In this document: positions 2,545 to 36,427 of the stretch, in pieces
Numbering within the stretch: the stretch's first letter is position 1
How the letters are laid out: each line of letters starts with the position of its first letter
Assembly (NCBI RefSeq): GCF_937910895.1
Contig: NZ_CALEMI010000111.1
Location: 1-37,618 of the forward strand
DNA: 37,618 nucleotides
Direction of reading: 5' to 3'
Source: an uncultured Dokdonia sp.
Lineage (GTDB): Bacteria; Bacteroidota; Bacteroidia; Flavobacteriales; Flavobacteriaceae
Notes under the pieces: model-generated
What the model was told of the DNA's origin: nothing
Seen by the model: only the letters and a program-made list of their open reading frames with translations
Databases searched by the model: none
Made by a program: the position numbers and the translations under genes

Positions 2545-2564
2545 TACGCTTTCGCGAAAGCGTA
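2545..2564. repeat. Perfect 20-bp copy of the GCTTTCGCGAAAGC palindrome (copy 1, intergenic)
   Basis: TACGCTTTCGCGAAAGCGTA is a perfect 20-bp palindrome with core at 2548-2561. It is the only one of eight copies outside a gene, lying 30 bp beyond the stop codon of the DUF456 gene. It has no T tract on either side and is not a terminator. The other cores are at 7952-7965, 10961-10974, 13937-13950, 24539-24552, 27389-27402, 31952-31965 and 35950-35963. Confidence 0.9.
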
Positions 2565-2594
2565 CACAACATGGGTAAAATTTCATTGAATTCT

Positions 2595-3104
2595 TTAAGA
2601 CCAAACAAACAAAACGTCTCCGTACAAAAAAAGTTTATAAACGAATAAGACAAGGAATATGATCGTTACCACAAACTTCATAAAGGTAGAGGCGATAAAT
2701 CCTAGAAAAGAGCCTACAGCTGCTTTAAATGCCGTTTTAGAGTCACTCTGATTAAACACAAGCTCTCCAATAAGCGCACCCACAAAAGGACCAATAAGAA
2801 TCCCAAAAGGGATCAGTGAGAAAATACCAACAAATAGTCCGATCATGGTACCTATCGCACCCGCTCTGCTTCCGCCAAAACGTTTAGTTCCTATAGAAGG
2901 AATAATATAATCAAGTATAAAAATAAGAATGGCAAAAAATAAGGTAATTCCTAAAAAAGTATAATCCATAGGAACGGCTTCTGTAAGATGTAAGACCAAA
3001 AGCCCTAACCAACTCACAGGAGGACCCGGCAATACAGGAAGAAAACTCCCAAGAATACCTAAAAGTATAAGTAACAAACTAAAAAATACAAGAAGTAAAT
3101 CCAT
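2595..3104 (-). CDS. DUF456 family membrane protein
   Basis: A 169-residue integral membrane protein starting at ATG 3104-3102. Nearly the whole length is hydrophobic in four or five helices, with the DUF456 glycine/proline-rich signatures GSFLPVLPGPP (about 19-29), GTKRFGGSRAGAIGTMIGL and GPFVGALIGE. The glycine-zipper segments are typical of the family. Length is normal. No biochemical role is known. It is transcribed alone on the minus strand, divergent from the BlaI-like regulator with about 160 bp between them. Confidence 0.85.
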   Translation of the reverse strand: MDLLLVFFSLLLILLGILGSFLPVLPGPPVSWLGLLVLHLTEAVPMDYTFLGITLFFAILIFILDYIIPSIGTKRFGGSRAGAIGTMIGLFVGIFSLIPFGILIGPFVGALIGELVFNQSDSKTAFKAAVGSFLGFIASTFMKFVVTIIFLVLFVYKLFLYGDVLFVWS

Positions 3105-3164
3105 CCTAAGGTGTGTAATGACAGACGGTATGACGAAAAAAAGAATGCTTTGTTACAATTTTAT

Positions 3165-3198
3165 AACTAAGAAATTAGTTTAAACTAAATTTTTAGTT
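3165..3198. promoter_or_regulatory. Two tandem BlaI-type operators
   Basis: Two 16-bp inverted repeats of identical design, AACTAA-N4-TTAGTT, lie at 3165-3180 (spacer GAAA) and 3183-3198 (spacer ATTT), 18 bp apart start to start. They sit just before and touching the promoter of the BlaI-like gene. BlaI/MecI dimers bind inverted repeats over their own promoter, so this is a well supported autoregulatory site; dimer binding itself is inferred. Confidence 0.8.
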
Positions 3199-3205
3199 AT
3201 ATTTG
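3198..3205 (+). promoter_or_regulatory. Bacteroidota-type -7 promoter element (TATATTTG)
   Basis: TATATTTG matches the Bacteroidota sigma-ABfr -7 consensus TAnnTTTG at every position. It lies about 60 bp before the ATG of the BlaI-like gene and touches the downstream operator, so repressor binding would block it. No clear -33 box is claimed. Confidence 0.65.
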
Positions 3206-7737: not shown

Positions 7738-8877
7738 TTATCTCTTAAAATACCTGCCTTTCCACGTAAATCCTCCTTTTAATGAAACCAAAGCAATATA
7801 TGAGCTTATAAAAGGATACCATAAAGCACAGAGTGGATACCAAAAAAAGAGCTTTAATTTTTTAAAAAATTGCGCAGATGGATATAGTAAAAAACTGTCT
7901 GCAACTATTTTTATAAAAAGTAGGATATAAAAAGGGAATGCTTCTTTGTCCGCTTTCGCGAAAGCAAAAACAACCCCAACAACAAACGTCAAATTAGACA
8001 TTAAAATAAGAAGCCCAACACCCTTAGTAAACGCTTTGGTATAGCCCGTTGACTTTGCTGCCCAACGGGTGCGTTGTGCTATATAGGAAGCCCAATCCTC
8101 TTGAAATGTTGTAGTAATTATAGCCTGTTTTGACTTTAGATAATGGACTTGCTTAGGATATACTGTTGTAAATTTTTCTAACATAAAGTGATCATCGCCA
8201 CTTGCTATATGATTGTTTCCTTGAAAACCGCCCAAGGTCAAAAAAGCCGCTTTCTCATAAGCCAGATGTGCGCCGTTGCACAAAAAAGGACGCCCTATTC
8301 CAAAACCACCTATGGTAGCTCCCGCAAGACTTAACGTATCCATTTGTTCAAAAGCATTTAAAAATGAGACCGTTTTAGGAGGCAAGCTCACAGGACCCGC
8401 AACCAATTTTGAGTTATTTTCTTGTATAAAAGTGTTTAGAGTACTTAACCATAACGTAGGAACTATACAATCTGCATCTGTCGTGACAATCCAAGAATGT
8501 GTGGCGATCTCAATAGCCGTTTGGATCGCGTCTTTTTTTGGAGAATCAGAAACTCGGATATTGTCTGTGATCGTGATGTTTGTTAGTTGATGGCTTTCAA
8601 TAAAGGATTCAATACACGCTACAGAATTATCTTCTGAGGCATCATTAATCAATAAAACTTCATACAAAGATTCAGGATACGTTAATGCGGCAAGACTTTC
8701 AAGCAATTGAGGAAGGTTTGCCTCTTCATTCCGAAAAGGAATAATCACAGAAAATCCTTGTGTTGGAATTTGTGTTTGTGACGTAAAATAAGGTACTCTT
8801 TTAACCCCATAAGACAACGCTCCTATAAGAAGAACGTAAGAGATCATAATACCATACAAGATGATCAATACAATCAT
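7738..8877 (-). CDS. Membrane-anchored family 2 glycosyltransferase
   Basis: A 379-residue GT-A glycosyltransferase. An N-terminal helix (about 1-23) precedes the GT2 domain with FSVIIPFRNEEANLP (about 43-57), the nucleotide-binding VLLINDASEDNS, the metal-binding DADC of TTDADCIVP, an acceptor-site motif GDDHFML, and QRTRWAAKS, the QxxRW-like motif of processive or lipid-linked GT2 enzymes. Two or three C-terminal helices follow. It overlaps the flippase-like gene by 4 bp (ATGA at 8877-8874), so the pair is probably one unit that makes and handles a glycolipid. The acceptor is unknown. The palindrome copy at 7952-7965 encodes AFAKA in this gene. Confidence 0.88.
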   Translation of the reverse strand: MIVLIILYGIMISYVLLIGALSYGVKRVPYFTSQTQIPTQGFSVIIPFRNEEANLPQLLESLAALTYPESLYEVLLINDASEDNSVACIESFIESHQLTNITITDNIRVSDSPKKDAIQTAIEIATHSWIVTTDADCIVPTLWLSTLNTFIQENNSKLVAGPVSLPPKTVSFLNAFEQMDTLSLAGATIGGFGIGRPFLCNGAHLAYEKAAFLTLGGFQGNNHIASGDDHFMLEKFTTVYPKQVHYLKSKQAIITTTFQEDWASYIAQRTRWAAKSTGYTKAFTKGVGLLILMSNLTFVVGVVFAFAKADKEAFPFYILLFIKIVADSFLLYPSAQFFKKLKLFFWYPLCALWYPFISSYIALVSLKGGFTWKGRYFKR

Positions 8878-10532: not shown

Positions 10533-11669
10533 GTGTCCAGCATCTACATCCACATCCCATTTTGCAAACAGGCATGTCACTATTGCGACTTTCACTTCTC
10601 TACGTCTATGGGCAAGAAAGAAGCGATGATTCAGGCATTGATGAGAGAGTTGGAACTACGTAAAGAGGAGTTTAAAGATGTACTCGTAGATTGTATTTAT
10701 TTTGGAGGAGGAACGCCTTCGGTACTAGAAACAGAGGAGATTAACCTTTTGATTCAAACGGTATATACGCATTACCAAGTGAGTGCCGACCCAGAAATTA
10801 CGCTAGAAGCAAACCCAGATGATCTTTCAGAAGCAAAGATTGAGGCATTACATAAGTCGGCGATTAATCGGTTGAGTATTGGGGTGCAATCTTTTTTTGA
10901 AGAAGATTTAAAATTGATGAATCGGGCACATAATGCAGCCGAGGCGGTACGGTCTATTACGCTTTCGCGAAAGCGGTTTCAGAATAGTTCCATAGATCTT
11001 ATTTATGGGATTCCAGAGATGAGTAACGCTCGATGGATCGAAAACATCGAACAAGCACTTGCCTTAGACGTACCTCACATATCAGCATACGCACTGACGG
11101 TCGAACCCAAAACAGCCCTTGAAAAATTCATCAAAAAAGGAATCATTCCGCCTGTAGAAGATGAGGTGGCGCAAGCACATCATGCAATTTTGGTAGAACG
11201 TCTGGAAGCTGAAGGATATCAGAACTATGAGTTCAGTAATTTTGGGAAACCAGGATCTTTCTCACGTAATAATACCGCCTATTGGGAAGGAAAAAGCTAC
11301 ATAGGAATTGGTCCAGGAGCGCATAGTTATGATGGAAAACGTCGCGCTTGGAATGTGAGCAACAATCCAAAATATATCAAAGCCATCTCGCAAAATGAAT
11401 TGCCTCAGGACGTAGAGCAATTAACCCCTACCGATCAATATAATGAGTATGTCATGACGCGTTTACGTACCCAACATGGTATCTCGCTTAAAGAAGTGCT
11501 TGCACTTTTTGGAGAGAAAATGCACGAGTATTTTCTTCAACAATCGCAACCGCATATTCATAATCATTTCTTATTTCAAGAAGAAGATAGAGTGTATGTC
11601 ACCAAAAAAGGAAAGTTCTTAAGCGACGGCATCGCCGCGGACCTGTTCATGCTGAATTTAAGCTCGTAA
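10533..11669 (+). CDS. hemW: Radical SAM family heme chaperone HemW
   Basis: A 378-residue radical SAM protein. The cluster motif is CKQACHYC (C11, C15, C18), in the HemW form with PFC and the aromatic YCDFHF. YFGGGTPSVL, EANPDD, RLSIGVQSF and IGPGAHSY complete the family pattern, and the C-terminal winged region is present. HemW binds haem and delivers it to proteins; it is often misannotated as oxygen-independent coproporphyrinogen III oxidase (HemN). The start is GTG directly after an 8-bp repeat array. The palindrome copy at 10961-10974 is read here as LSRKR. Confidence 0.93.
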   Translation: MSSIYIHIPFCKQACHYCDFHFSTSMGKKEAMIQALMRELELRKEEFKDVLVDCIYFGGGTPSVLETEEINLLIQTVYTHYQVSADPEITLEANPDDLSEAKIEALHKSAINRLSIGVQSFFEEDLKLMNRAHNAAEAVRSITLSRKRFQNSSIDLIYGIPEMSNARWIENIEQALALDVPHISAYALTVEPKTALEKFIKKGIIPPVEDEVAQAHHAILVERLEAEGYQNYEFSNFGKPGSFSRNNTAYWEGKSYIGIGPGAHSYDGKRRAWNVSNNPKYIKAISQNELPQDVEQLTPTDQYNEYVMTRLRTQHGISLKEVLALFGEKMHEYFLQQSQPHIHNHFLFQEEDRVYVTKKGKFLSDGIAADLFMLNLSS

Positions 11670-13040: not shown

Positions 13041-13658
13041 ATGGAATTTTTATTTTTAGGCCTTGCCATAGGCGCAGTTATCGCCTATTTTTTATACGCA
13101 CGCTTTGCCAGAAGGGGAAATAAGGCAAATGCACATTCGCAATCTACGATACTTATGGAGCGTATTCGTTCTGTATGTAAGTTTATTACGGTAGAGGGAG
13201 ATTTTGCAGAGATTTATCATTATGAAAGCCTTCGCGATAAGTGGATTCAAAAGCTATTAGGTACCAAAAAAGCATTGGTGCTTATCGATGCCAAAGCGCA
13301 TATAGGTTTTGATTTGACCAAGATTAAAATGGAAGCAGATATCGAAACCAAGACCATTAAACTCTATGATTTTCCGCAGCCAGAATTACTCTCTATAGAA
13401 ACCGACTTTAAATTTTATAATACCCAAGAGGGCTGGGCAAATCCATTTAACAGTACAGATTTGACAGAGATTAATAAAGAAGCAAAACGACATATTGTGG
13501 ATAAAATTCCGAATAGCGGACTCTTTAAAGAAGCGTCCAGACAAGCCTTGGATACGATTGTTTTGATTCAGAAATTAGTAGAAACCATCGGTTGGCAATT
13601 AGATTATGATGCTTTAAAAATAACTGCGCCAGAAGAATCTCCAAAACTCAATGCCTAG
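13041..13658 (+). CDS. DUF4230 domain-containing protein
   Basis: A 205-residue protein with one N-terminal membrane anchor (about 3-20, FLGLAIGAVIAYFLYARF) and a DUF4230 domain. SVCKFITVEGDFAEIYHY, ALVLIDAKAHIGFDLTKI and the later IETDFKFYNTQEGW are typical; the domain resembles bacterial proteins of unknown role exposed outside the inner membrane. Its stop codon TAG shares its last base with the GTG start of the next gene, so the two are coupled. Confidence 0.88.
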   Translation: MEFLFLGLAIGAVIAYFLYARFARRGNKANAHSQSTILMERIRSVCKFITVEGDFAEIYHYESLRDKWIQKLLGTKKALVLIDAKAHIGFDLTKIKMEADIETKTIKLYDFPQPELLSIETDFKFYNTQEGWANPFNSTDLTEINKEAKRHIVDKIPNSGLFKEASRQALDTIVLIQKLVETIGWQLDYDALKITAPEESPKLNA

Positions 13659-14146
13659 TGATACACCTCATCCTCGGAAATACAGGAGCTGGCAAGACCA
13701 CATACGCGCTTTCACTAAAAGAAAAAGAGCAAGGTGTTCTCTTTTCGATAGATCATTGGAATAAAATCCTGTTTCTGGATGACAAAACACCAGACGATGG
13801 CGTCGATTGGTTTTTGGAACGGATTGAGCGTTCAGATACGATGATTCAATCATTGGTCGTGCAACTGGCGACGGTAGGAACACCCGCGATTCTGGATTTG
13901 GGATTTGCTAAAAAAGATCGGAGGGCTCGTTTTTACGCTTTCGCGAAAGCGTATAACATCCCCTTCCAATTGCATTTTTTAGATCTTCCATTAGAAGTAC
14001 GTAAACAACGTGTGATAAAACGCAATCAAGAGAAAGGAACCACATTTCAATTTGAAGTATCCGAAACCGATATGGAATTTATGGAAACCTGGTTTGAAAA
14101 ACCCACCCCAAACGAATTAGAACATGCACTCATTATTACAACCTAA
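13658..14146 (+). CDS. P-loop ATP-binding protein (kinase-like)
   Basis: A 162-residue P-loop protein starting at GTG 13658, which overlaps the preceding stop by one base. Walker A is GNTGAGKT (7-14). AILDLGFAKKDRR is the Walker-B-like strand, and LEVRKQRVIKRNQEK is the arginine-rich lid typical of small nucleotide or zeta-toxin-like kinases. The substrate is unknown; family members include gluconate-kinase-like and antibiotic-modifying kinases. The palindrome copy at 13937-13950 encodes AFAKA here (YAFAKAYN). It overlaps the next gene by 23 bp. Confidence 0.8.
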   Translation: MIHLILGNTGAGKTTYALSLKEKEQGVLFSIDHWNKILFLDDKTPDDGVDWFLERIERSDTMIQSLVVQLATVGTPAILDLGFAKKDRRARFYAFAKAYNIPFQLHFLDLPLEVRKQRVIKRNQEKGTTFQFEVSETDMEFMETWFEKPTPNELEHALIITT

Positions 14147-15083
14147 TAGACACGTCTTTACCTGCCTTTTTATCGGTCTGTGCTTTAGCATGTCGGCGAT
14201 ACCTCAAGACTATGAAAAAGTAGACGCTACTGTATCTTTTTATCCAAAAAGCTTTGAGACGCCTCAGGCCTTAGCTAAGAAAATAAAAAAAGATTTTACC
14301 AATCCTAAAGAGCAATTACGCGCAGGATACTCTTGGCTGATCAATAATGTAGCGTATGATCCGGAGGAATATTATACGTATCAGTTTCAATACCGTGTAT
14401 TGGATGAGCGTAATGAAAAAATGGCTGAAACCAGAGAAGCTATTATTAATAGAACCTTACAGCTAGGGATAGCGGTTTGTGAAGGCTATGCCTTAACATT
14501 AGAACGCCTGTGCGAGTTATTAGACATACAAGCGTATGTAGTCCGCGGAGACACTAAAACAAAACCTTCAGATATAGGGCGTTATTTTGTTAAAAATCAC
14601 ATGTGGATGGTGGCTATCATTGGCGATAATGCGCTGTTATTAGATCCTACTTGGGGAGCGGGTCGCTATCAAGATACGTTTATTAAATCCCCATCTTATT
14701 ATTATTTTGATACTCCAGCACCGCTGTTTTTAAAGAATCATTATCCAGAAGTTTTTGAGGATGCCTATGTGAATTTTACCTTGTCAAAAGAAGATTTTAT
14801 TCAGCAACCTTTAGTGATACGAAAACGACTTACGGTGGCCGATATAAGTCCCAAGGAAGGAATCATCAAAGCGAAAGAGTTATCTAAAGGAATTGTATTT
14901 TCGTTACGAGGAATAAAAGCAGAAAGTGTAAGTTATACCCTAGACGATGCTCAAAAAACAAAGGTAGATTTTACAATAGAAAATGATGTCTTAGCGTGTA
15001 TGATTGCAACAAAAACAAAAGGAGAGTCACTCATTATTTATGTAGATGATAAGCCTGTTGTTGGCTATAGGATTAAAAAGTAA
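14124..15083 (+). CDS. Secreted transglutaminase-like domain protein
   Basis: A 319-residue protein. An N-terminal hydrophobic stretch (about 10-25, HVFTCLFIGLCFSMSAIPQ) is a likely signal peptide, preceded by a charged N-region. The transglutaminase/papain-like core has all three catalytic residues: C119 in AVCEGYA, H159 in KNHMWM and D174 in LLLDPTWG. A beta-rich C-terminal domain follows (about 225-319). Bacterial members act as peptidases or crosslinkers in the periplasm. The start overlaps the previous gene by 23 bp, which suggests coupling or a slightly later true start. Confidence 0.85.
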   Translation: MHSLLQPNRHVFTCLFIGLCFSMSAIPQDYEKVDATVSFYPKSFETPQALAKKIKKDFTNPKEQLRAGYSWLINNVAYDPEEYYTYQFQYRVLDERNEKMAETREAIINRTLQLGIAVCEGYALTLERLCELLDIQAYVVRGDTKTKPSDIGRYFVKNHMWMVAIIGDNALLLDPTWGAGRYQDTFIKSPSYYYFDTPAPLFLKNHYPEVFEDAYVNFTLSKEDFIQQPLVIRKRLTVADISPKEGIIKAKELSKGIVFSLRGIKAESVSYTLDDAQKTKVDFTIENDVLACMIATKTKGESLIIYVDDKPVVGYRIKK

Positions 15084-15102
15084 GAAAAGTAAATAAGAAC
15101 TC

Positions 15103-15459
15103 ATGCACATAGAAGATGTACGGAACTATTGTATTGCAAAAAAAGGAGTGACCGAAGAGTTTCCTTTTGATGAGACCACACTTGTTTTTAAAGTGATGGG
15201 AAAGATGTTTGCATTAAGTGGTCTCGAACGTATTCCAGCTGCTGTCAATTTAAAATGTGATCCCGAACGTTCTGTCGAATTAAGAGAAGAGTATGATGGA
15301 AGTATTACAGGTGCTTTTCACATGAGTAAACTCCATTGGAACACAATTATCTTAGAAGAAGTACCTCCAAAATTAATCATAGAACTCATTGATCACTCAT
15401 ACAATCTTGTCGTGAGTAAGATGACAAAGAAACTTCGCAACGAACTAGAAAACCTATAA
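15103..15459 (+). CDS. MmcQ/YjbR family protein
   Basis: A 118-residue protein of the MmcQ/YjbR (CyaY-like fold) family. The family pattern MHIEDVRNYCIAKKGVTEEFPFDETTLVFKVMGKMFAL opens it, with NLKCDPERSVELREEY and the C-terminal HWNTIIL...LIDHSYNLVVSKM segment. Homologues are proposed to bind DNA; the role is not established. It stands 19 bp after the transglutaminase gene. Confidence 0.92.
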   Translation: MHIEDVRNYCIAKKGVTEEFPFDETTLVFKVMGKMFALSGLERIPAAVNLKCDPERSVELREEYDGSITGAFHMSKLHWNTIILEEVPPKLIIELIDHSYNLVVSKMTKKLRNELENL

Positions 15460-15496
15460 CCGCTTTCCTTCCCTTGAATAGAAGCGTTACTAATAA

Positions 15497-17284
15497 ATGT
15501 CTACAGACTTCATGAACAACCCATCCCAATTTTATAAAGATCAAAAAATAACGCATCAAGAAGCGCTCTCAAAAATCAAAGGGCAACTCAATGTATCAAG
15601 TACCATACGATTACTATTGTTTTTAGGAATCTTAGGAAGTATCTATGTTACGTTTGGAAACTGGAGACTAATGGCAGGCGTATTACTTGTTAAGGTTACA
15701 CTATTTGTCTTTTTGGTGGTGCGTCATGGCAAATTTATCTATCAACGTGATTTGATAAAAGCGTTGATTGCTATCAATGAAACAGAATTAAAGGTGTTAG
15801 ATCGTGATTTTCACGATTTGCCTACAGGCGAAGAATACCACGATCCAAATCATTTTTACAGTCAGGATATTGATCTTTTTGGAAGAGGTTCTTTTTTTCA
15901 ATACCTCAACAGAACGGCTTTGGAAAGTGGAGCAGATGTTCTTGCTGGTATTGTAAAAGCCAATGAGATCACGGATATTCCTGCAAAACAAAAAGCCATC
16001 CAAGAACTCAGTACCCTTCCAGAATGGAGACAGCAATTTTCGGCAATTGCATCTTTGGTAAAAACAGAAGTTCCTGCAACGACAGTAACCACTTGGTTAC
16101 AAGCGTACACACCGTTTGTTCCTAAAAATGCAAAAATAGGTTCAAGGATCTTTTCTGGTATTTCTTTAGCAGGATTAGTACTTTACTTCTTAGGCTTTAT
16201 TCACGGGAGTTTTGTGATAGGATGGTTTCTTTTAGGGCTTGCTATTATAGGAAAGTTTGTAAAGAAAATCAATGTACTTGCAGCATATACAGGAAAAATC
16301 CAAAGCACCTTTGATCAGTATCATAAATTATTAGCCAAGATAGAAGAACAAACCTTTGAAAGCGATGTACTCAAAGAAAAGAGCGCCAGGATTATTAATA
16401 CCTCTCAAAAAGCATCGGGTGTATTACGGAGCTTCTCTAGACATCTAGATGCCTTTGATCAGCGTAATAATATCTTGATTGGGATTATCGCCAATGGTTT
16501 TTTTATAAGAGACCTTTTGGTGGTTTCTCAAATAGAAACGTGGATTGCAAAACACAAAAATGATGTGGCGATTTGGTTTGAGATCATCACTTTTTTTGAT
16601 GCGTATAACAGTTTAGGAAATTATGATTTTAATCATCCGCACCATCACTATCCAGAAATTACGGATAGCAACGTGACCCTTGAAGCCACACAAACCGCAC
16701 ATCCATTACTAGACTCTGCAAAAGCAATCCGTAACGATGTAACCATAGACACAGAACAATTCTTTATCATCACAGGCGCAAATATGGCAGGAAAGAGTAC
16801 GTTTTTACGTACCGTTGCTTTGCAGATTGTAATGGGGAATATAGGATTGCCCGTATGCGCACAAAAAACTAGCTATACGCCTATAAAGCTCATCACCAGT
16901 ATGCGAACGACAGATAGCTTAACAGACGATGAGAGTTATTTCTTTAGCGAATTAAAACGCCTTAAGTTCATTGTAGAAGAAATTAAAAATGATCGCTATT
17001 TTATTATCCTTGACGAAATCTTAAAAGGAACCAATAGCACCGACAAAGCCATCGGTTCACGGAAATTTGTCGATAAGTTAGTAGGCTCAAAATCTACAGG
17101 GATTATCGCCACCCATGATCTAAGTTTGTGTGAAGCTGCTCAAGATTTACCCCAAGTTAAAAATTACTATTTTGATGCCCGTATTGAAGATGACGAACTC
17201 TATTTTGACTACACCTTTAAAGAAGGCATTTGCCAAAATATGAATGCGAGTTTCTTATTGAAGAAAATGGAGATTGTGGATTGA
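15497..17284 (+). CDS. Membrane-associated MutS-related ATPase
   Basis: A 595-residue protein with membrane helices at about 36-76 and 221-256 and a C-terminal MutS-type ABC ATPase. Walker A is GANMAGKS (427-434), followed by STFLRTVALQIVMGNIG, the signature-like MRTTDSLTDDESYFFSELKR, Walker B FIILDEILKGTNSTDK and the H-loop ATHDL. Mismatch-recognition and connector domains of true MutS are absent, so it is not the repair enzyme. Similar membrane-anchored MutS-like proteins are widespread in Bacteroidota, with no known function. Confidence 0.88.
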   Translation: MSTDFMNNPSQFYKDQKITHQEALSKIKGQLNVSSTIRLLLFLGILGSIYVTFGNWRLMAGVLLVKVTLFVFLVVRHGKFIYQRDLIKALIAINETELKVLDRDFHDLPTGEEYHDPNHFYSQDIDLFGRGSFFQYLNRTALESGADVLAGIVKANEITDIPAKQKAIQELSTLPEWRQQFSAIASLVKTEVPATTVTTWLQAYTPFVPKNAKIGSRIFSGISLAGLVLYFLGFIHGSFVIGWFLLGLAIIGKFVKKINVLAAYTGKIQSTFDQYHKLLAKIEEQTFESDVLKEKSARIINTSQKASGVLRSFSRHLDAFDQRNNILIGIIANGFFIRDLLVVSQIETWIAKHKNDVAIWFEIITFFDAYNSLGNYDFNHPHHHYPEITDSNVTLEATQTAHPLLDSAKAIRNDVTIDTEQFFIITGANMAGKSTFLRTVALQIVMGNIGLPVCAQKTSYTPIKLITSMRTTDSLTDDESYFFSELKRLKFIVEEIKNDRYFIILDEILKGTNSTDKAIGSRKFVDKLVGSKSTGIIATHDLSLCEAAQDLPQVKNYYFDARIEDDELYFDYTFKEGICQNMNASFLLKKMEIVD

Positions 17285-17498: not shown

Positions 17499-17514
17499 AT
17501 TGTATATTTACAAT
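17499..17514. promoter_or_regulatory. Palindrome over the promoter of the Xre/RES operon
   Basis: ATTGTA-TATT-TACAAT has perfect 6-bp arms and contains TATATTTA (17503-17510), a near match to the TAnnTTTG -7 element, about 24-39 bp before the antitoxin ATG. A self-bound operator for the antitoxin is the natural reading; binding is inferred. Confidence 0.5.
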
Positions 17515-21967: not shown

Positions 21968-21998
21968 TTATTTCTGTCGGTTTTTTCAGCTTACGTAC

Positions 21999-22277
21999 AA
22001 CTACTTTATATCAACACCCAAAATACTACAAAAAACATAACCTTCACATTTTTAGCCATTTTAATTAAATAATCAAAGCGTTTATAACCGTTAAAAACGA
22101 TTAGTAATGATGTGAGACGTTAGGAAATAGTCATCGTAGCACATTGTAATCCTGAGCTTGTAATCTAAAGAAGTATCTCAAATTCACTTGTGAAAAGGTA
22201 AAAAGTGGGTTAGTAATGAGGTTTTTGTCTGGATTTTATAAAAATCACTTTTTATAAGCGTTTTTGCTTTGATATAA
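21999..22277 (+). repeat. Long dispersed repeat, copy 3 (left and middle parts, truncated)
   Basis: Begins AACTACTTTATATCAACACC and follows copy 2 closely through the left and middle parts, with GGATTTTATAAAAATCAC and GCTTTGATATAA at 22277, where similarity stops abruptly. The right part is absent; the small cysteine-rich ORF lies just beyond. Confidence 0.9.
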
Positions 22278-22355
22278 CCCGAGTGTAAAATAATGTTTTT
22301 GATGACCTTTAGGAATACTAACGATGAGTATATATAAACCATTAATTATTTTATT

Positions 22356-22508
22356 ATGATACTAGATCAAAAAATTAAACTAAAAAGGGAACGTATTAAA
22401 ACTGAATTTAATTATTCAGGACATACAGAACAATGTGGTGAATTTATAGGTCACCCTAGTGAACCATGCAAAAGATGTGGTTTTTCTTATCATAGCCACA
22501 CGGGATGA
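22356..22508 (+). CDS. Small cysteine-rich protein, 50 residues
   Basis: A 50-codon ORF starting at ATG 22356. It has a basic N-terminus (MILDQKIKLKRERIKTEF) followed by a compact Cys/His set: C27, C38, C41 with H23, H33, H46 and H48, in the order QCGEFIGHPSEPCKRCGFSYHSH. This could be a small zinc ribbon. It is out of reach of ordinary gene callers but has a coherent composition and ends at TGA 22506. No family recognised; it may be an antitoxin-like or regulatory partner, or a chance ORF. Confidence 0.4.
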   Translation: MILDQKIKLKRERIKTEFNYSGHTEQCGEFIGHPSEPCKRCGFSYHSHTG

Positions 22509-22850
22509 TTTTTTCGTGTTTTTAACAACATGAGGTAAGACCCTCTCATTTTTTGGTTTTACCTCATTACTAGTATTCACAAAATAATGCAAACAAGGTG
22601 TAGGAAACCAACTTGAAATTGTTTCCATTCGATTAAATATTAATAATTCTATTTTTTAAAATCTTCGTAAAGGGACGTGATTTACATAAGTTAAAGAGTA
22701 AGGTTGTATACAAACTAGGTAAGTGACTACGTGCTTTTGTTTTCACTAAAGTGTAGTAAAAAGAAGTGAAATGCTCTTTTTTAAACTTCCCTCCTAGAAA
22801 AGAGGGACTGAGGGAGGTGTTGTCTTAGGCAGTTCCCAAAGTACATTTCT

Positions 22851-22892
22851 AAAAATAGAGTAGTACTCTAAAATAGAACAATACTCTATTTT
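22851..22892. repeat. TAGAGTA/TACTCTA inverted-repeat element, copy 1
   Basis: A 42-bp element AAAAATAGAGTAGTACTCTA... with nested inverted repeats (outer arms AAATAGAGTA and TACTCTATTT). A copy with very few changes lies at 33531-33572. The symmetric arms could act as a bidirectional hairpin. Confidence 0.8.
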
Positions 22893-23043
22893 CGTGAGCA
22901 CTATTGATTTTACACCTCCCTAGCCCTTACTTCGATGGGATCAGTACATATCTTTTCAAACTCTTTGATAGTGTTATGCTTAAAAGAATTGTAAAAATTT
23001 TGTCGGACAATAGAGATTAACAATTTGAAACCATTTAGTTTTT

Positions 23044-23090
23044 CCTAAACACCTAAACACCTAAACACCTAAACACCTAAACACCTAAAC
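23044..23090. repeat. Tandem repeat of the 8-mer CCTAAACA, nearly six copies
   Basis: Five exact copies of CCTAAACA and a sixth of seven bases. It lies 69 bp before the VOC gene start. The 8-bp period is the same as that of the CATTAACC array at hemW, but the unit differs. Confidence 0.9.
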
Positions 23091-23158
23091 TTTTAAACTC
23101 AGATCAACTCTTCCGACAATTCATTACTTTTAAGCAACAATCTTAAAAACCAACAACT

Positions 23159-23530
23159 ATGAAACTAGGAGCATTTTCAGCAAGTTTGAGTGTCAAAGAC
23201 ATTCACGTATCCAAAGCATTTTATGAAAACTTAGGCTTTGAGGTATTCGCAGGCGATATGGAGCGTAACTATCTCATCATGAAAAACGGCAACGCCCTCA
23301 TCGGACTCTTCCAAGGAATGTTTGATGAAAATATTTTGACATTCAATCCAGGATGGGATGAAAATGCAAACCCATTAGACGATTTTGATGATGTGAGAAC
23401 TATCCAAAAACACCTCAAAGAAAAAGGTATTCTCTTAGAACGAGAAGCCGATGAAACCACAACAGGTCCTGCAAGCGTAGTACTCCTAGACCCCGATGGA
23501 AACGCCATCCTTATCGATCAGCATGTGTAG
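23159..23530 (+). CDS. VOC family (glyoxalase-like) protein
   Basis: A 123-residue protein of the vicinal oxygen chelate fold with paired beta-alpha-beta-beta-beta modules: FSASLSVKDIHVSKAFYENLGFEVFAGD (about 5-32) and the second module ending VVLLDPDGNAILIDQH (107-122). The usual metal ligands are partly visible (Q and D/E near the module ends), so activity is uncertain. Substrate unknown. A remnant of a second copy of this gene's 3' end lies 260 bp downstream. Confidence 0.88.
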   Translation: MKLGAFSASLSVKDIHVSKAFYENLGFEVFAGDMERNYLIMKNGNALIGLFQGMFDENILTFNPGWDENANPLDDFDDVRTIQKHLKEKGILLEREADETTTGPASVVLLDPDGNAILIDQHV

Positions 23531-23740
23531 TTCTTCATGACGAAATAACTGTGTTTTAATGGCATTCGAAAGATTGTCGTAAAATTTGAAGGGAAGATTC
23601 CGTAGAATTTCGCACTGTTTGAGCGCAGCGAGTTTGTGAAATTTAGGAATCAAGCAATAAATTTAGACAAGATTTCGCCAGCCTAGCCTTTTTTGTTTCT
23701 TTTTTTGGCAATGAAAAAAAGAAAAGAGAGGAATTTTTGA
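23477..23740 (+). repeat. Duplicated block, copy 1 (VOC 3' end plus downstream non-coding DNA)
   Basis: The last 54 bases of the VOC gene and about 200 bp after it match 23789-24045. The non-coding part includes CGTAGAATTTCGCACTGTTTG, AGCGCAGCGAGTTTGTGAAAT and a closing inverted repeat TTTCTTTTTTT-GGCAAT-GAAAAAAAGAAA. Similar GCGCAGCGAG blocks recur in flavobacterial genomes as far as I recall, so this may be a dispersed element. Confidence 0.85.
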
Positions 23741-23788
23741 GCAAACTAATATGCCTTAGTTTAATTGTTATCATAGTTTAAAATCAAT

Positions 23789-23842
23789 CTAGTACTTTTA
23801 GATCCTGACGGCAATGCGATCCTCATTGATCAGCATGTGTAG
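23789..23842 (+). pseudogene. Remnant of a second VOC gene (last 17 codons)
   Basis: In frame to TAG 23840-23842 the bases read LVLLDPDGNAILIDQHV, the same as the C-terminus of the upstream VOC protein except one residue. The codons differ mostly at third positions, so it comes from a diverged paralogue, not a recent copy. The rest of the gene is missing; the DNA before it is unrelated. Confidence 0.85.
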
Positions 23843-24045
23843 TTCTTCATGACGAAATAACTGTGTTTTAATGGCATTCGAAAGATTGTCGTAAAATTTG
23901 CAGTGAAGATTCCGTAGAATTTCGCACTGTTTGAGCGCAGCGAGTTTGTGAAATTCAGGAATTAAGCAATACATTTAGACAAGATTTCGCTAGCCTAGAC
24001 TTTTTTGTTTCTTTTTTTGGCAATGAAAAAAAGAAAAAGAAGATA
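23843..24045 (+). repeat. Duplicated block, copy 2 (non-coding part)
   Basis: Begins right after the remnant stop codon and matches 23531-23740 with about seven single-base differences over some 195 bp, ending in the TTTCTTTTTTT...AAAAAAAGAAA inverted repeat. Together with copy 1 it fills the 550-bp space between the VOC and YdjM-like genes, in which no other gene is seen. Confidence 0.85.
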
Positions 24046-24080
24046 TTTGGATTGATAATATATAATCAAACATTAACCCC

Positions 24081-25082
24081 TTGGATAGTTTAACACAAAT
24101 CGTATTAGGAGCTGCAGTAGGCGAAGCCGTATTAGGTAAAAAAGTAGGAAACAGAGCGATGCTTTGGGGAGCGGTTGCAGGAACGATTCCTGATTTAGAT
24201 GTCGTTGCACGTTTTCTGACAGATACGATTACCGCCACAGAAATGCACAGAGGATTCAGTCACTCTATCGTCTTTTCGGTGTTGATGGCACCACTTTTGG
24301 GTTGGCTCGTTCATCAGATAAAGAAACGACCGGATGTCGGTTGGCAAGGATGGAGCAAACTCTTTTTCTGGGGACTTTTTACCCACCCGCTACTCGATAC
24401 ATTTACCACTTGGGGCACCCAATTATTCTGGCCTTTTGATATCCGGCTCGCCTTCAATAATATCTTTGTGATTGACCCATTATATACCGTTCCCTTTTTA
24501 GTGTGTTTGATAATCGCGGCTTTTAAAAAAAGGGGTACGCTTTCGCGAAAGCGTATAAATAATCTTGGTATCTATCTAAGTACAGGATATCTAGTCATTA
24601 CCCTATTTTTAAAGTGGGGCGCACATACTAAAATCACAGAGGCACTAAAAGAACAAAACATAGCCTATTCAAAAGTATCCACCCGTCCAGCACCACTGAA
24701 TACCATTTTGTGGAATGCTAATGTAGATGCAGGCGAGAACTATCTGATTGGTGATTACTCCTTTTTTGACTCACAACCTGTCACATTTACTGCCTATCCC
24801 AAAAAACGAGTAACTTCACAAGAACTCGCCGCGACCGATGCCGTACAACGACTCATTGACATCTCCCAAGGCTGGTATATTCTAGAACAAGAAAATGGAC
24901 AATGGATTTATAATGACTTGCGTTTTGGCTTAATTTCGATTGACCCCGAAAACCCTCAGTTTGTTTTTAGATACATTCTTGAAAAAGAAAACGGAACCGT
25001 TACCGCCACGGAAGACCGTCCTAAAATGGAAAATACAAATGCTGTTTTTGGAACCTTGTGGGAACGGATCAAGGGGAATTAG
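24081..25082 (+). CDS. YdjM-type membrane-bound metal-dependent hydrolase
   Basis: A 333-residue protein of the YdjM/LexA-binding inner-membrane hydrolase family. The TTG start gives the family opening MDSLTQIVLGAAVGEAVLGKKVGNRA, followed by GTIPDLDVV, the metal motif HRGFSHS (about 53-59), and HPLLDTFTTWGTQLFWPFD. Helices lie at about 28-45, 60-80, 95-110, 128-145 and 160-180; a beta-rich C-terminal domain follows. No substrate is known. The TTG sits in CCTTGGAT, one 8-bp unit after CATTAACC. The palindrome copy at 24539-24552 is read as LSRKR. Confidence 0.88.
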   Translation: MDSLTQIVLGAAVGEAVLGKKVGNRAMLWGAVAGTIPDLDVVARFLTDTITATEMHRGFSHSIVFSVLMAPLLGWLVHQIKKRPDVGWQGWSKLFFWGLFTHPLLDTFTTWGTQLFWPFDIRLAFNNIFVIDPLYTVPFLVCLIIAAFKKRGTLSRKRINNLGIYLSTGYLVITLFLKWGAHTKITEALKEQNIAYSKVSTRPAPLNTILWNANVDAGENYLIGDYSFFDSQPVTFTAYPKKRVTSQELAATDAVQRLIDISQGWYILEQENGQWIYNDLRFGLISIDPENPQFVFRYILEKENGTVTATEDRPKMENTNAVFGTLWERIKGN

Positions 25083-26895: not shown

Positions 26896-27726
26896 TTACA
26901 ATAATGAAGCCTTATACACAGACGGATTTAACTTCTTGTAGTGTTTGAACTTTCGGTTAAAATGAGATAAGGTTTGAAACCCTGAAAGCAGCGCAATATC
27001 TGCAATAGATAACTCAGGTCGCTCTTTTAATAAAGTACACACATGAGCAATACGAATCTCCGTGAGAAACTGAAAATAGGTTTTATTCGTTCGTTTTTTA
27101 AAATACTTACAAAATCCGTTGGTGGTCATCGCAGCGACTTCGGCAATGTCTGTGAGTTGGATCGGCTCCGAAAAATGCTGCAAAGAATATTCAAAAATCC
27201 GATGGAGTTTCTTTCCGTCGGCTTCAGATATGTTTTTATGGTATACAAAAGAAGCGATCGGAGTAGACTCACTCACCGTAAGTACTTGGATAAGCTGTAA
27301 AAAATATGCCAGTCGTAAGATTCCGTCGTGTTGCGATATGGCTTCGAAGGTAGCCGTGATTTCTGGCGTTGTTATGGTTTTAAATCCCGCTTTCGCGAAA
27401 GCGTAAAAATCCAATACCCCTTTGCCTTCTTCTAAATCCAAAAAGGAATTCCCAAAGGATTGCGGATTAAAAAAAACGGTATGCATTAACGCATCGGTCG
27501 ACTCATTACGAAACACATGTGGTTGCTGTCCGCCAATCACAAATACATCTCCTTCTTGAAAATGATGAATCGTATCTGCAATCAGCAACGTGCCTTTTCC
27601 TTCTATAATACGACTGATTTGTAGTTCTTGATGTTGATGTAATTGCCCATAAAATGGCCCCTCATCTATTTGAAAAATGATGGCTGTATTGCGGGATTTA
27701 GGAATTTTAAAAGGAAGGACTTTCAT
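26896..27726 (-). CDS. AraC family transcriptional regulator, probably of the hydroxyproline cluster
   Basis: A 276-residue regulator with an N-terminal cupin (about 20-100, HQHQELQISRIIEGKGTLLIADTIHHFQEGDVFVIGGQQPHVF) that senses a ligand and a C-terminal AraC double HTH (about 175-276, LTDIAEVAAMTTNGFCKYFKKRTNKTYFQFL...LSIADIALLSGFQTLSHFNRKFKHYKKLNPSVYK). It is divergent from the hydroxyproline deaminase gene across 181 bp, the usual place for a pathway activator. The palindrome copy at 27389-27402 encodes AFAKA (YAFAKAGF). Confidence 0.9.
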   Translation of the reverse strand: MKVLPFKIPKSRNTAIIFQIDEGPFYGQLHQHQELQISRIIEGKGTLLIADTIHHFQEGDVFVIGGQQPHVFRNESTDALMHTVFFNPQSFGNSFLDLEEGKGVLDFYAFAKAGFKTITTPEITATFEAISQHDGILRLAYFLQLIQVLTVSESTPIASFVYHKNISEADGKKLHRIFEYSLQHFSEPIQLTDIAEVAAMTTNGFCKYFKKRTNKTYFQFLTEIRIAHVCTLLKERPELSIADIALLSGFQTLSHFNRKFKHYKKLNPSVYKASLL

Positions 27727-31777: not shown

Positions 31778-33505
31778 ATGAATAAAATACTAAGTGTATT
31801 ATTGATCATCAGTTGTAGCGCCATGCTATGTGCTCAAACTCCTTCTGAAAACCTTGCACAAATCATCGAAGACGTTCAGGATCACAAAGGATATGACCGT
31901 AAGGATTACCCGATGGGCTTATTTACAAAGGCATATTTTGAGGAGGAGTCCGCTTTCGCGAAAGCGCAATTAGAAAAACTTGCTAGCATTTCTGAAACCG
32001 ATCTTTCTGAAACCGAAGCGATCTCACTAGCCCTGTTGCGTTTTAGCTTACAAGAAACAATAGACTATACTGCTTACGAGCGCTATTTAAATCCGTTGTT
32101 ATCTGACTCAGGATTTCACAGTAGCTGGAATTATATGGTGCGCCCGATTACTAGTTATGAACAAGCAAAATCATATTTGAATCGATTGAATGCACTTCCA
32201 GATGCGGTAGATCAATATCTGCCTTTGTTGCGAGAAGGGTTGGAGAAAGGCGTGTCACAACCTAGAGTGATTTTCAACGGGTATGAAAGCACCTATGACT
32301 CTCAAATTGTCGCTAATTATGAAGATAGTTTTTATTATGAACCTTTTAAAAACTTACCGAGTTCGCTGACAAAAGCTGAAAAAGATTCGGTACTTACCGC
32401 TGCAAAAGCTGCCATAGAGAATCGTGTGATTCCCTCGTTTAAACGTGTCAAAACGTTTTTTGAAGAAGAGTATTTTCCAAAAACCCGAACAACGATCGGT
32501 GTTTCTCAAACCCCCAACGGTAGTGATTATTACCAAAACAGAATTAACTATTACACGACCTTAGATTTGACCGCAGATCAGATTCATACTATCGGTCTTG
32601 ACGAAGTTGCGCGGATCAAAGCTGAAATGCGAAAGATCATTGCTGAGGTTAATTTCAAAGGTTCCTTTGCCGACTTTTTACAATTTCTCCGCACCGACGA
32701 GCAGTTTTATGCGAAGACGCCCAAAGAACTCTTAATGATTGCTCGGGATATGGCAAAACGTGCGGATGCGCAATTACCACGATTTTTTAAAACGCTTCCG
32801 CGAAAACCTTATGGAGTCGCTCCCGTACCCGATGCGATTGCCCCGAAGTACACAGGCGGTCGTTATGTTGGGACCAATAAAAACAGTACAGATCCTGGCT
32901 ATTATTGGGTAAACACCTATGATTTGCCTAGCCGTACTTTATATACTTTGCCGTCTTTAACCGTACACGAAGCGGTTCCTGGGCATCATTTACAAGGAAG
33001 CCTTAATAACGAATTGGGAGATAGCATTCCGCAATTCAGAAAAAATATGTACCTCTCTGCTTTTGGAGAAGGCTGGGGATTATACTGTGAGTTTCTCGCC
33101 GAAGAAATGGGAATGTACACGACGCCGTATGAGCATTTCGGAAAACTCACGTATGAGATGTGGCGTGCCTGCCGATTGGTGGTCGATACAGGGATTCATG
33201 CCAAAGGATGGACACGCGATCAAGTCGTCGCCTATATGTCTGAAAATACGGCCCTTTCCATCCATGAGATCAATACAGAAACCGATCGGTATATCTCATG
33301 GCCTGGACAGGCATTATCTTATAAAATAGGCGAAATTAAAATTCGCGAACTCCGAAAAGAGGCAGAAACCGCTTTGGGTGCCGACTTTGATATTCGTGAG
33401 TTTCATGAAGTGATTTTAGGACAAGGAACGGTGACATTGGAGATTTTGGAACAACGAGTGAAGGATTGGATTGAGAAAGAAAGTAAAATAGAAAATAGAA
33501 AATAG
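31778..33505 (+). CDS. DUF885 family secreted putative metallopeptidase
   Basis: A 575-residue protein with a Sec signal peptide (KILSVLLIISCSAMLCAQ; the cysteine makes a lipobox possible) and the DUF885 fold. Its zinc-like motif is HEAVPGHH (H397, E398, H403), with a downstream GEGWGLYCEFLAEEMG helix giving the third ligand. The domain is distantly related to gluzincin peptidases. Its place in the hydroxyproline cluster suggests release of hydroxyproline from peptides, which is inference. The palindrome copy at 31952-31965 encodes AFAKA (SAFAKAQ). Confidence 0.85.
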   Translation: MNKILSVLLIISCSAMLCAQTPSENLAQIIEDVQDHKGYDRKDYPMGLFTKAYFEEESAFAKAQLEKLASISETDLSETEAISLALLRFSLQETIDYTAYERYLNPLLSDSGFHSSWNYMVRPITSYEQAKSYLNRLNALPDAVDQYLPLLREGLEKGVSQPRVIFNGYESTYDSQIVANYEDSFYYEPFKNLPSSLTKAEKDSVLTAAKAAIENRVIPSFKRVKTFFEEEYFPKTRTTIGVSQTPNGSDYYQNRINYYTTLDLTADQIHTIGLDEVARIKAEMRKIIAEVNFKGSFADFLQFLRTDEQFYAKTPKELLMIARDMAKRADAQLPRFFKTLPRKPYGVAPVPDAIAPKYTGGRYVGTNKNSTDPGYYWVNTYDLPSRTLYTLPSLTVHEAVPGHHLQGSLNNELGDSIPQFRKNMYLSAFGEGWGLYCEFLAEEMGMYTTPYEHFGKLTYEMWRACRLVVDTGIHAKGWTRDQVVAYMSENTALSIHEINTETDRYISWPGQALSYKIGEIKIRELRKEAETALGADFDIREFHEVILGQGTVTLEILEQRVKDWIEKESKIENRK

Positions 33506-34679: not shown

Positions 34680-34748
34680 TGAGTTAGTAAAATAATGTAG
34701 TAATGAGATAATGGTTTAATGAATAAATGAGTTAATGATCTAATATGG
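34677..34748. repeat. Nine 8-bp-phased TAATGNNN units (inverse orientation of CATTA) from epimerase stop to next start
   Basis: Units: TAATGAGT, TAGTAAAA, TAATGTAG, TAATGAGA, TAATGGTT, TAATGAAT, AAATGAGT, TAATGATC, TAATATGG, with no break in phase. The first contains the TAA stop of the epimerase gene and the last contains the ATG (34745) of the four-helix-bundle gene. Confidence 0.85.
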
Positions 34749-35107
34749 ATAAGTCTGAATTTATAAAACAATTTAAAAGTAGAACAAAAGCATTGGCTGT
34801 GAAGATTGTGCTGTTTTATGATGAAATGCCAAAGACAGATGCTTCTAGAGTTATGGGGAGACAATTAATTCGATCTGTTACGTCTACTGCTGCAAATTAT
34901 AGAGCTGCTTGTATTGCGAGATCTTCAAAAGAATTTTATGCAAAAATGTCAATTGTAGTTGAAGAAGCAGATGAAACGTTGTTTTGGCTTGAAATGATAA
35001 AAGACACTGGAATGGCGACTGAAGAGAAATTAAAACCATTTATTAAAGAAGCTACTGAAATCGCAAAAGTAATGTCGGTAGCACGTAAAAATGTAGACAG
35101 ATCGTAA
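34745..35107 (+). CDS. Four helix bundle protein (23S rRNA-intervening-sequence family)
   Basis: A 120-residue helical protein: FIKQFKSRTKALAVKIVLFYDEMP, RQLIRSVTSTAANYRAACIARSSKEFYAKMSIVVEEADETLFWLEMI is the conserved core of the four-helix-bundle/S23 ribosomal family. Members are encoded alone in genomes or inside 23S rRNA intervening sequences; the function is unknown. It sits between two hydroxyproline genes and has an 8-bp-phased array on each side, so it may have been inserted into the operon. Confidence 0.92.
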   Translation: MDKSEFIKQFKSRTKALAVKIVLFYDEMPKTDASRVMGRQLIRSVTSTAANYRAACIARSSKEFYAKMSIVVEEADETLFWLEMIKDTGMATEEKLKPFIKEATEIAKVMSVARKNVDRS

Positions 35108-35113
35108 AGTATT

Positions 35114-35182
35114 CATTATATCATTCACTCATTAAATCAATAAGACATTGAAATAATAACCCATTAACCCATTATCACATTG
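35114..35182. repeat. Nine 8-bp-phased CATTANNN units running into the TTG start of the FAD oxidoreductase
   Basis: Units: CATTATAT, CATTCACT, CATTAAAT, CAATAAGA, CATTGAAA, TAATAACC, CATTAACC, CATTATCA, then CATTG. The TTG start (35180) takes bases 3-5 of the last unit, the same phase as at the epimerase gene. Confidence 0.85.
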
Positions 35183-36427
35183 AAAAAAGAAATCATCATC
35201 ATAGGCGGCGGGATCATAGGATTATCTTGTGCTTATTTCCTTCATAAATCGGGACATCAAGTCACGGTCATTGATCAGTCTAAAATGGACGGGGGTGCTT
35301 CCTACGTGAATGCAGGATATTTGTCGCCTAGTCATATGATTCCGTTGTCAGCACCTGGCGTGATGAAGCAAGGGATCAAATGGATGCTAGATAAGAAGAG
35401 TCCGTTGTATATTAAACCTCGATTAAATGCTGATCTAATCAAATGGAGTTGGGCGTTTAATAAATCCTGTACTTCAAAACATGTAGCTCGTGTGATTCCT
35501 GTGATGCGAGAAATTGCGGTGATGGGACGTGATTTATATGATCAGATTAAACAAGAAGAAGGCTTTGATTTTCAACTGGATAAAAAAGGATTATTCATGC
35601 TTTGTCAGACGGAGCAGACGCTGCATCACGAACAAGAATTAGTGGAGATTGCTCAAAAAGAAGGTTTGGTCGCTCGATCCATGTCGGCTACAGAAGTGCA
35701 GCAGATGATGCCAGACACCACGCTAGATATTATGGGTGCTACCTATTTTGAGTGTGATCATCATACCACGCCTGGCGCGTTTATGAACGAACTCAAAACG
35801 TATTTGGTAAACGCAGGGGTTGTGATCCGGAAGGAAGAAAAAGTATTGGATGTAGGCGTTGAAAATAATAAGATCACTTTCGTGAAAACGGATAAAGAGC
35901 AACTCAAAGCAGATGAGTATATTCTTGCTGCGGGATCGTGGACATCTATGCTTTCGCGAAAGCTAAACATTCACCTTTTACTCCAAGCAGGGAAAGGATA
36001 TCGCGTAGAGACGACAACGCCGACAGGAATTATATACCCGTCTATTCTCGCCGAAGCTAAAATTGCCATTACTCCCATGAGCGGATTTACACGTTTTGCG
36101 GGGACGATGGAAATTGCAGGGATCAATCACCAGATTAATACAGATCGAGTAGACGCTATTGCCGAAGGGGTACAACGATATTTTCCAGAGGTTAGAGTGA
36201 CCGCAGAAGAAAAAGCACAAGCAGCAAGTGGTCTTCGTCCTGTGTCTCCAGATGGAATGCCTTATATCGGGAAAAGTGCGAAGTGTAAAAACCTAACAAT
36301 CGCTACAGGGCATGCTATGATGGGATGGAGTTTAGGCCCTTCTACAGGAAAGCTTATACAAGAAGTAATAGATGGGATAAAACCTAGTATGGATATGGCA
36401 CTGTTTCATCCAGACCGAAGGTTTTAA
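35180..36427 (+). CDS. FAD-dependent D-amino-acid dehydrogenase, likely D-hydroxyproline dehydrogenase
   Basis: A 415-residue DAO-family flavoprotein. The N-terminal dinucleotide fold IIIIGGGIIGLSCAYFLHKSGHQVTVID (about 5-32) is followed by GGASYVNAGYLSPSH, the DadA-like substrate region and the C-terminal FAD contact ASGLRPVSPDGMPYIG...TGHAMMGWSLGP. In context it oxidises cis-4-hydroxy-D-proline to 1-pyrroline-4-hydroxy-2-carboxylate, the second step. The TTG start gives KKEIIIIGGG directly. The palindrome copy at 35950-35963 is read as LSRK. Confidence 0.88.
   Translation: MKKEIIIIGGGIIGLSCAYFLHKSGHQVTVIDQSKMDGGASYVNAGYLSPSHMIPLSAPGVMKQGIKWMLDKKSPLYIKPRLNADLIKWSWAFNKSCTSKHVARVIPVMREIAVMGRDLYDQIKQEEGFDFQLDKKGLFMLCQTEQTLHHEQELVEIAQKEGLVARSMSATEVQQMMPDTTLDIMGATYFECDHHTTPGAFMNELKTYLVNAGVVIRKEEKVLDVGVENNKITFVKTDKEQLKADEYILAAGSWTSMLSRKLNIHLLLQAGKGYRVETTTPTGIIYPSILAEAKIAITPMSGFTRFAGTMEIAGINHQINTDRVDAIAEGVQRYFPEVRVTAEEKAQAASGLRPVSPDGMPYIGKSAKCKNLTIATGHAMMGWSLGPSTGKLIQEVIDGIKPSMDMALFHPDRRF

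Follow-up and report, generated by a model that had tools for sequence, protein, structure and literature searches.

A strict 14-bp palindrome iterated through Dokdonia and Nonlabens genomes: a candidate site of DNA self-recognition

Why should one 14-nucleotide word recur, letter for letter, along a short piece of bacterial DNA? The question is raised by a 37,618-nucleotide stretch from an uncultured Dokdonia sp. (assembly GCF_937910895.1, contig NZ_CALEMI010000111.1, forward strand; here called the window), in which the perfect palindrome GCTTTCGCGAAAGC occurs eight times (Table 1). An earlier reading of the window from its letters, the original prediction, had located these copies and proposed that they are a host-specific DNA mark that foreign DNA has not yet gained. 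All eight copies were found where it had placed them: seven lie inside open reading frames (ORFs), four encoding AFAKA and three LSRK, and the eighth, at 2548, is intergenic. One further match has two mismatches; with up to two mismatches allowed, the window holds nine matches, against a mean of 0.15 in 100 shuffles of its sequence.

We asked how far this recurrence extends, using the reversed palindrome of GCTTTCGCGAAAGC as a control. The genome of the window (G000; 4,809,286 bases in 169 contigs) contains 878 exact copies of the word and none of the control. All 18 Dokdonia genomes (369-905 copies) and all 23 Nonlabens genomes (288-857) carry it in bulk, with no copy of the control in any of them. 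Massive over-representation, a trait of uptake signals and equally of highly iterated palindromes of the HIP1 (highly iterated palindrome 1) type, was thus seen in 41 of 41 genomes of the two genera, and chance or base composition can be rejected as its origin by the shuffles, by the count of 878 versus 0 and by the absence of the control throughout. With one genome per genus of the Flavobacteriaceae, 31 of 149 had any copy at all, and only Dokdonia (878) and Nonlabens (578) had the word en masse, the next highest count being 17. A phylum-wide draw of 395 genomes, which took in no Nonlabens and no other Dokdonia, gave any copy in 22 and a mass of copies only in the genome of the window; the 10-mer core TTTCGCGAAA was not iterated in any of 295 other genomes drawn from the order, where the highest count was 28. 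Among 80 loci listed for an 18-mer form in named genomes, all belonged to Dokdonia or Nonlabens except those from four sources: Muricauda, a 'Flavobacteriaceae bacterium' metagenome-assembled genome (MAG), a 'Cytophagaceae' MAG and strain BBFL7 (G173). Both genera form clades in a hemW protein tree of 29 rows, and their union is uncontradicted, with weak support (71/48). These counts, the check that the original prediction had proposed, strongly support a host-specific, genome-wide DNA mark, which among the sampled genera is massively present in just two. The open literature that we searched did not contain GCTTTCGCGAAAGC, and returned TTTCGCGAAA, or either genus together with palindromes, only in papers with unrelated-looking titles; it held no paper joining Flavobacteria with highly iterated palindromes or with an overrepresented DNA uptake sequence, and a text search of a paper on spaced motifs (PMC5217627) found no mention of Flavobacteri or Bacteroidetes.

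The word is also strict. Summed over 33 of the 41 genomes, for which one-mismatch forms were counted, exact copies outnumber singly mismatched ones by 22,980 to 3,204, or 7:1, with ratios of 3.8 to 12.7 in individual genomes. An excess of exact over singly mismatched copies is the behaviour of uptake signals; passages of Redfield et al. (2006; PMC1626085) call it a puzzling attribute common to the uptake signal sequence (USS) and the DNA uptake sequence (DUS), unlike regulatory binding sites, and part of a paper by Bakkali (PMC1939737) describes a mismatch gradient for USS and DUS words. In 1.29 Mb of fetched sequence we found 344 exact copies and 29 with one mismatch. The deviations were spread over the word, 6 of the 29 falling at the outermost pair (2 of 14 positions), so that in this small sample there was no concentration at the ends of the HIP1 type. 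By simple arithmetic the core holds up to 28 bits, whereas about 12 would be needed to choose 899 sites in 3.29 Mb; bits beyond what genome addressing needs are expected if the discrimination is against foreign DNA.

The sequence preference does not stop at the core. A 400-kb portion of G149, a complete Dokdonia genome, shows the core lengthened to TTAC-core-GTAA, and beyond this each strand is G-poor and A/C-rich on its 3' side, the signal fading about 30 bp from the centre. The extended flanks are alike in coding and non-coding copies; in a sample of 49 Nonlabens sites the first flanking bases are shifted to GGAA/GAAA. Across 294 Dokdonia sites, the two arms agree at matching flank positions no more than independent draws would, implying the symmetry of a duplex bound by a symmetric protein rather than that of a pairing hairpin. 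The G-poor flanks and the independent arms suggest a putative dimeric reader of duplex DNA. An RNA hairpin, a terminator and a single-stranded DNA hairpin were considered and rejected, since the arms beyond the core match no better than independent draws and the copies are not specific to gene ends.

Where do the copies lie? In the first 400 kb of G149, 60 of 107 sites fall outside ORFs of at least 90 codons, which cover 91% of the sequence, and in the 820 kb sampled of this genome 108 of 224 do so (ORF cover 90%). The stretches used for other Dokdonia and for Nonlabens were for the most part selected around hemW and the window; 14 of the 49 Nonlabens sites were outside ORFs (cover 84%). The original prediction had noted two reading frames only and never more than one copy per gene. 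Both hold within the window and neither holds beyond it: all three frames are used in the 820 kb of G149 (67 AFAKA, 23 FRES and 26 LSRK), and two sites occur in 5 of 111 site-bearing genes there and in 1 of 64 in other Dokdonia. Close pairs are scarce. G149 has 1 gap below 500 bp against 13 expected and 4 below 1 kb against 25, and its spacing is under-dispersed (coefficient of variation, CV, 0.72; P 0.0004); the corresponding counts in a Nonlabens genome (G166) are 2 against 10 and 5 against 19. Density is even round the G149 chromosome, with a mean of 5.46 sites in 41 stretches of 20 kb and a variance/mean of 0.48, and we therefore rejected a macrodomain signal of the origin/terminus type. 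In the same chromosome (contig C1), sites at 287375, 304074 and 320877 mark off two consecutive intervals of 16.7-16.8 kb, and the first two sites do not differ in their distances to ORFs; this suggests a large duplicated unit, itself free of the word.

Individual sites are frequently conserved between orthologous loci. For 21 genomes we used BLAST to align hemW and its surroundings, up to about 20 kb each; genomes recur among the comparisons, which are therefore not independent. In Dokdonia pairs of 70-80% identity, 122 of 177 sites were identical, 8 had one or two mismatches and 47 had at least three or an indel, compared with 20 of 422 random 14-mers identical; at 60-70% identity the figures were 34 of 72 and 1 of 181. 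Nonlabens pairs of 70-80% identity gave 60 of 78 against 8 of 190 controls, and Dokdonia against Nonlabens, at 60-70% identity, 38 of 53 against 0 of 60. Against two word-free genera, 0 of 33 sites were identical. Most sites in these regions are thus either intact or changed by considerably more than one or two bases. In D. pacifica (G150), seven of the eight window copies lie in aligned DNA, at about 76-80% identity, and all seven are exact.

The hemW copy shows replacement rather than insertion. It lies in a variable stretch and is replaced in register and without gaps, reading LSRKR in five Dokdonia and four Nonlabens and other residues elsewhere; two genomes (G152 and G155) retain a remnant with three mismatches, and in another, the Dokdonia genome G158, the word is split in its middle by a 21-bp insert that keeps the frame. 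Apart from that insert, these alignments led us to reject an insertion element at the hemW site. Only hemW was aligned by eye; at the other sites, aligned by BLAST, some word-free sites align with gaps. Origin by substitution, seen at hemW only, and orthologous persistence are both traits of uptake signals. The G158 insert is itself an imperfect palindrome, CCTGTCTGCCGAACAGGCAGG (L078 10061-10081, L050 2198-2218), with a similar repeat in another genus (G078; L039 8461-8481), and may be a small mobile palindromic element.

What, then, is the word for? Tentatively, and by analogy with published systems, we place an uptake-type self-recognition site ahead of a chromosome-organising site. Three parts of the following account are inferred: a reader protein, an uptake step and a drive. 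The word would mark DNA as self along the entire chromosome and would most likely serve natural transformation as an uptake signal. Its reader, a symmetric and putatively dimeric protein, would recognise the 14-bp core in duplex form and, more weakly, the flanks to about 30 bp on each side of the centre, and DNA fragments bearing the site would preferentially be taken in and recombined. Uptake bias, with selection against broken sites, would keep hundreds of mostly perfect, spaced copies per genome, and these would be retained in intergenic DNA and at gene positions that tolerate AFAKA, FRES or LSRK. The ranking follows from four features, namely strictness, orthologous persistence, origin by substitution and graded flanks, which match published traits of uptake signals: like the word, the USS and DUS of Pasteurellaceae and Neisseriaceae are present in many copies, more often exact than singly mismatched, stable at homologous sites and of substitutional origin, and the Pasteurellaceae USS likewise has semi-conserved flanks, according to parts of PMC1626085 and PMC1939737. 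Among the options listed in the original prediction, an uptake-like signal fits best.

Several observations weigh against this interpretation. Known USS and DUS words are asymmetric 9- to 12-mers, whereas ours is a 14-bp palindrome; it also differs from them in having its host in Bacteroidota and in being sparser, at about 0.13-0.27 per kb in Dokdonia. The excess of intergenic sites, strong in G149, is weaker elsewhere; in stretches from other Dokdonia, where it is weak, 12 of 77 sites lie outside ORFs (cover 90%). Persistence is not uniform, since 0 of 18 sites were identical in Nonlabens pairs of 60-70% identity, and overall spacing in the Nonlabens genome G166 (CV 0.92) is indistinguishable from random (P 0.25). 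ComEC was found in 23 of 23 Dokdonia and Nonlabens genomes searched and also in 30 of 31 others; being near-universal in the family (53 of 54), it does not single out the two genera. The 15 competence papers listed by our search of the open literature mentioned neither Dokdonia nor Nonlabens. Finally, the word is found on some phage contigs (in one, five copies in 27 kb), as would also follow from a chromosome-maintenance site. As a separate observation, a copy ends 60 bp before the start of the ComEC domain in three Dokdonia (G149 C1 104330, G000 C11 9879, G150 C9 101340), inside a 674-residue ORF in G149; comEC itself seems to carry the word.

The alternative that we take most seriously, though we consider it rather unlikely, is that a nucleoid, condensin-loading or nucleoid-occlusion protein docks on the hundreds of spaced copies, binding the palindrome as a dimer. 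Such a chromosome-organising site would account for a palindromic duplex with independent arms, for the even density and the deficit of close pairs, for persistence at individual sites and for the word on phage contigs. The parS, Noc and matS sites are likewise palindromic duplex binding sites, and the TTTC...GAAA halves of the word recall parS and the Noc site. However, known matS, parS, Noc and SlmA sites are regional and number in the tens, whereas the word has hundreds of evenly spread copies and a different half-site spacing; over the 41 stretches of one chromosome we saw none of the regional or low-copy distribution of the ParB/Noc/MatP type. Its 14 strict bases also exceed the need for genome addressing, and binding sites are usually relaxed in consensus (part of PMC1626085), unlike the 7:1 excess of exact copies. 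Nor did a ParB search point to a reader: each of 23 Dokdonia and Nonlabens genomes has one ParB of usual size, four add a 616-residue type that is also present in other genera, and none has an extra ParB/Noc-like paralogue typical of the two genera, a search that did not extend to MatP, SlmA or condensins. Of the segregation-protein sites that the original prediction had allowed for, a clustered one does not fit these data, given the even density and the lack of such a paralogue.

The remaining explanations appear improbable to us in differing degrees. An element like HIP1, also among the options of the original prediction, would be kept by an orphan DNA methylase and methyl-directed repair. 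Like HIP1 of cyanobacteria (GCGATCGC), the word is a palindrome iterated many times, has CG in its core and spans a whole clade. It is longer, stricter, of another sequence and in another phylum, its 14 strict bases exceed any methylase site known to us, its one-mismatch copies show no clear end-bias, and TCGCGA outside TTCGCGAA is near expectation (52 versus about 43). Its strictness and this count weakly disfavour the idea, which we think improbable, even though HIP1 and alternate HIPs are described, in part of PMC4390886, as tracking methylases. A Chi-like recombination hotspot, or a repair-entry site acting in both directions, seems less probable still. Copy density is close to that of E. 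coli Chi, and the G-poor flanks are strand-asymmetric; known Chi sites, however, are asymmetric words of 5-8 nucleotides read as single strands, not 14-bp perfect palindromes in duplex DNA with symmetric arms that do not co-vary. Least credible of all is a palindromic repeat that moves or is copied, of the kind found in Rickettsia or like repetitive extragenic palindromic (REP) elements. Near-identical copies would be expected of it, but the flanks grade off, and at hemW the idea is largely refuted by replacement in register without gaps, bar the one genome with an unrelated insert.

The original prediction had drawn its argument about foreign DNA from a 10.6-kb gap between sites (13,950-24,539) covering an accessory island. 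The gap is real and its insert is free of the word. Under ordinary spacing, however, such a gap has an 8-14% chance, and in the comparison with D. pacifica only about 17,285-23,130 is unaligned within it, apart from two short pieces, the matching interval being a site-free 7.9 kb without the insert. The gap alone is therefore weak evidence, and one word-free insert proves little. That acquired DNA is not yet marked remains plausible: copy number correlates weakly with genome size (r 0.34; 13 Dokdonia genomes, rounded sizes), and the word tends to be sparser in larger genomes, which is what would be expected from the acquisition of word-free DNA. Against it, some viral contigs bear the word at host-like density. 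The insertion contains an Xre/RES toxin-antitoxin pair and a 558-residue reverse transcriptase adjoining a 223-residue ORF without a Pfam match at E 1e-5, and could be a defence module.

Table 1. Copies of GCTTTCGCGAAAGC and the strain-variable insertion in the window. G150, D. pacifica; G151, D. sinensis; G010, Nonlabens sp.; G163 and G165 are further genomes compared.
Feature	Start	End	Strand	Frame	Context	Comparison with other genomes
Copy 1	2548	2561	.		Between convergent ORFs 348-2300 (+) and 2595-3104 (-)	Outside D. pacifica-aligned DNA
Copy 2	7952	7965	.	AFAKA	Family-2 glycosyltransferase gene 7738-8877 (-)	Exact in G150, G163, G165
Copy 3	10961	10974	.	LSRKR	Radical-SAM/HemN_C (hemW-like) gene 10533-11669 (+)	Exact in 4/11 other Dokdonia and 4/7 Nonlabens compared; rest replaced, decayed or interrupted
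Copy 4	13937	13950	.	AFAKA	AAA_33 ATPase gene 13658-14146 (+)	Exact in G150, G163, G151; not in G165
Copy 5	24539	24552	.	LSRKR	YdjM-family membrane protein gene 24081-25082 (+)	Exact in D. pacifica
Copy 6	27389	27402	.	AFAKA	AraC-family regulator gene 26896-27726 (-)	Exact in D. pacifica
Copy 7	31952	31965	.	AFAKA	DUF885 gene 31778-33505 (+)	Exact in D. pacifica
Copy 8	35950	35963	.	LSRK	FAD-dependent oxidoreductase gene 35180-36427 (+)	Exact in D. pacifica
Insertion	17285	23130	.		Xre/RES, reverse transcriptase, DUF2971-like (as in the original prediction); GC about 27-31% over most; no motif copy	Strain-variable

Stray copies outside the two genera have a pattern of their own. Twenty-nine other genera have 1-17 copies, and we examined selected loci in 10 of these. 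In seven, at least some copies lie in genes of a metal-efflux type of cluster (outer-membrane efflux protein, AcrB-family pump, P-type ATPases, Fur-like regulator), some of these assignments resting on likeness between loci; two of the seven have further copies in other genes, and in the remaining three genera the copies were seen elsewhere. G087 and G101, which are different genera, share one efflux gene at 99.9% DNA identity. In G087 it carries the word twice, and its protein is up to 99% identical to Nonlabens copies and 97% to Dokdonia copies. Homologues at E<=1e-100 occur in 24 of the 41 Dokdonia and Nonlabens genomes, and 19 of 20 fetched loci from these genera carry the word, many at the same spacing. 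The simplest reading, tentative as to direction, is that the efflux-gene copies were transferred out of the word-bearing genera. Two genomes (G042 and G144) have more one-mismatch than exact copies (19 versus 6 and 20 versus 9; controls 0), a pattern that decaying relics or old transfers would be expected to leave.

The viral contigs were picked for having the word, and no rate can be derived from them. Among the first 80 loci listed (85 copies), 56 copies are in sequence with a GC fraction of at least 0.42, where chance matches are likelier. The low-GC 27-kb contig with five copies encodes a phage-type primase. Two others have three copies each in the parts seen, with a tail tape-measure protein in one and a baseplate hub protein in the other, and another has six copies in the 28 kb seen.

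Other words are dispersed in the family. We surveyed k-mers in stretches from other genera (up to 20 kb each, 33 of them at least 9 kb long) and, judging by eye, found one genus (G012) with a dominant, different dispersed word, CTTCGGAA, which is possibly another uptake-like or Chi-like word. Genomes enriched for a word of the CTTCGGAA(A) type include G012, G063, G076, G101, G027 and G039. Counted in one genome per genus, CTTCGGAAA exceeds its reversed control about 3- to 14-fold in 16 of 149 family genomes (for example 1,048 versus 115 in G063); the genomes drawn for Dokdonia and Nonlabens have fewer copies of it than of the control (39 versus 87 and 5 versus 26). In several genera the relaxed form TTCNGAA occurs at 2-4 times its third-order expectation, and Dokdonia G149 has it at 2.9 times. 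A different arrangement was seen in an 18.8-kb locus of G045 (C1, L278), which has eleven exact copies of ACAACGTGTATA, most with a shared downstream stretch and many 600-900 bp apart; by analogy, this array may be like the recombination sites of a gene-cassette array.

To our knowledge, well-studied uptake words come from only two bacterial families, and neither word is palindromic. A bolder version of the uptake interpretation, about which we are doubtful, is that with GCTTTCGCGAAAGC we would have the first DNA uptake signal of palindromic form, and also the first from Bacteroidota; a dimeric receptor would read it as duplex, and it would already have been present in the common ancestor of Dokdonia and Nonlabens, with the other Flavobacteriaceae words (CTTCGGAA / TTCNGAA) as dialects. 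If this is true, dialect words would decide who exchanges genes with whom in the sea. A strict palindrome present in hundreds of copies in culturable marine bacteria offers a ready test of how self-DNA recognition originates and is kept up. The word also gives a sequence tag for gene flow, and as many stray copies ride in transferred metal-efflux genes, it may trace that flow.

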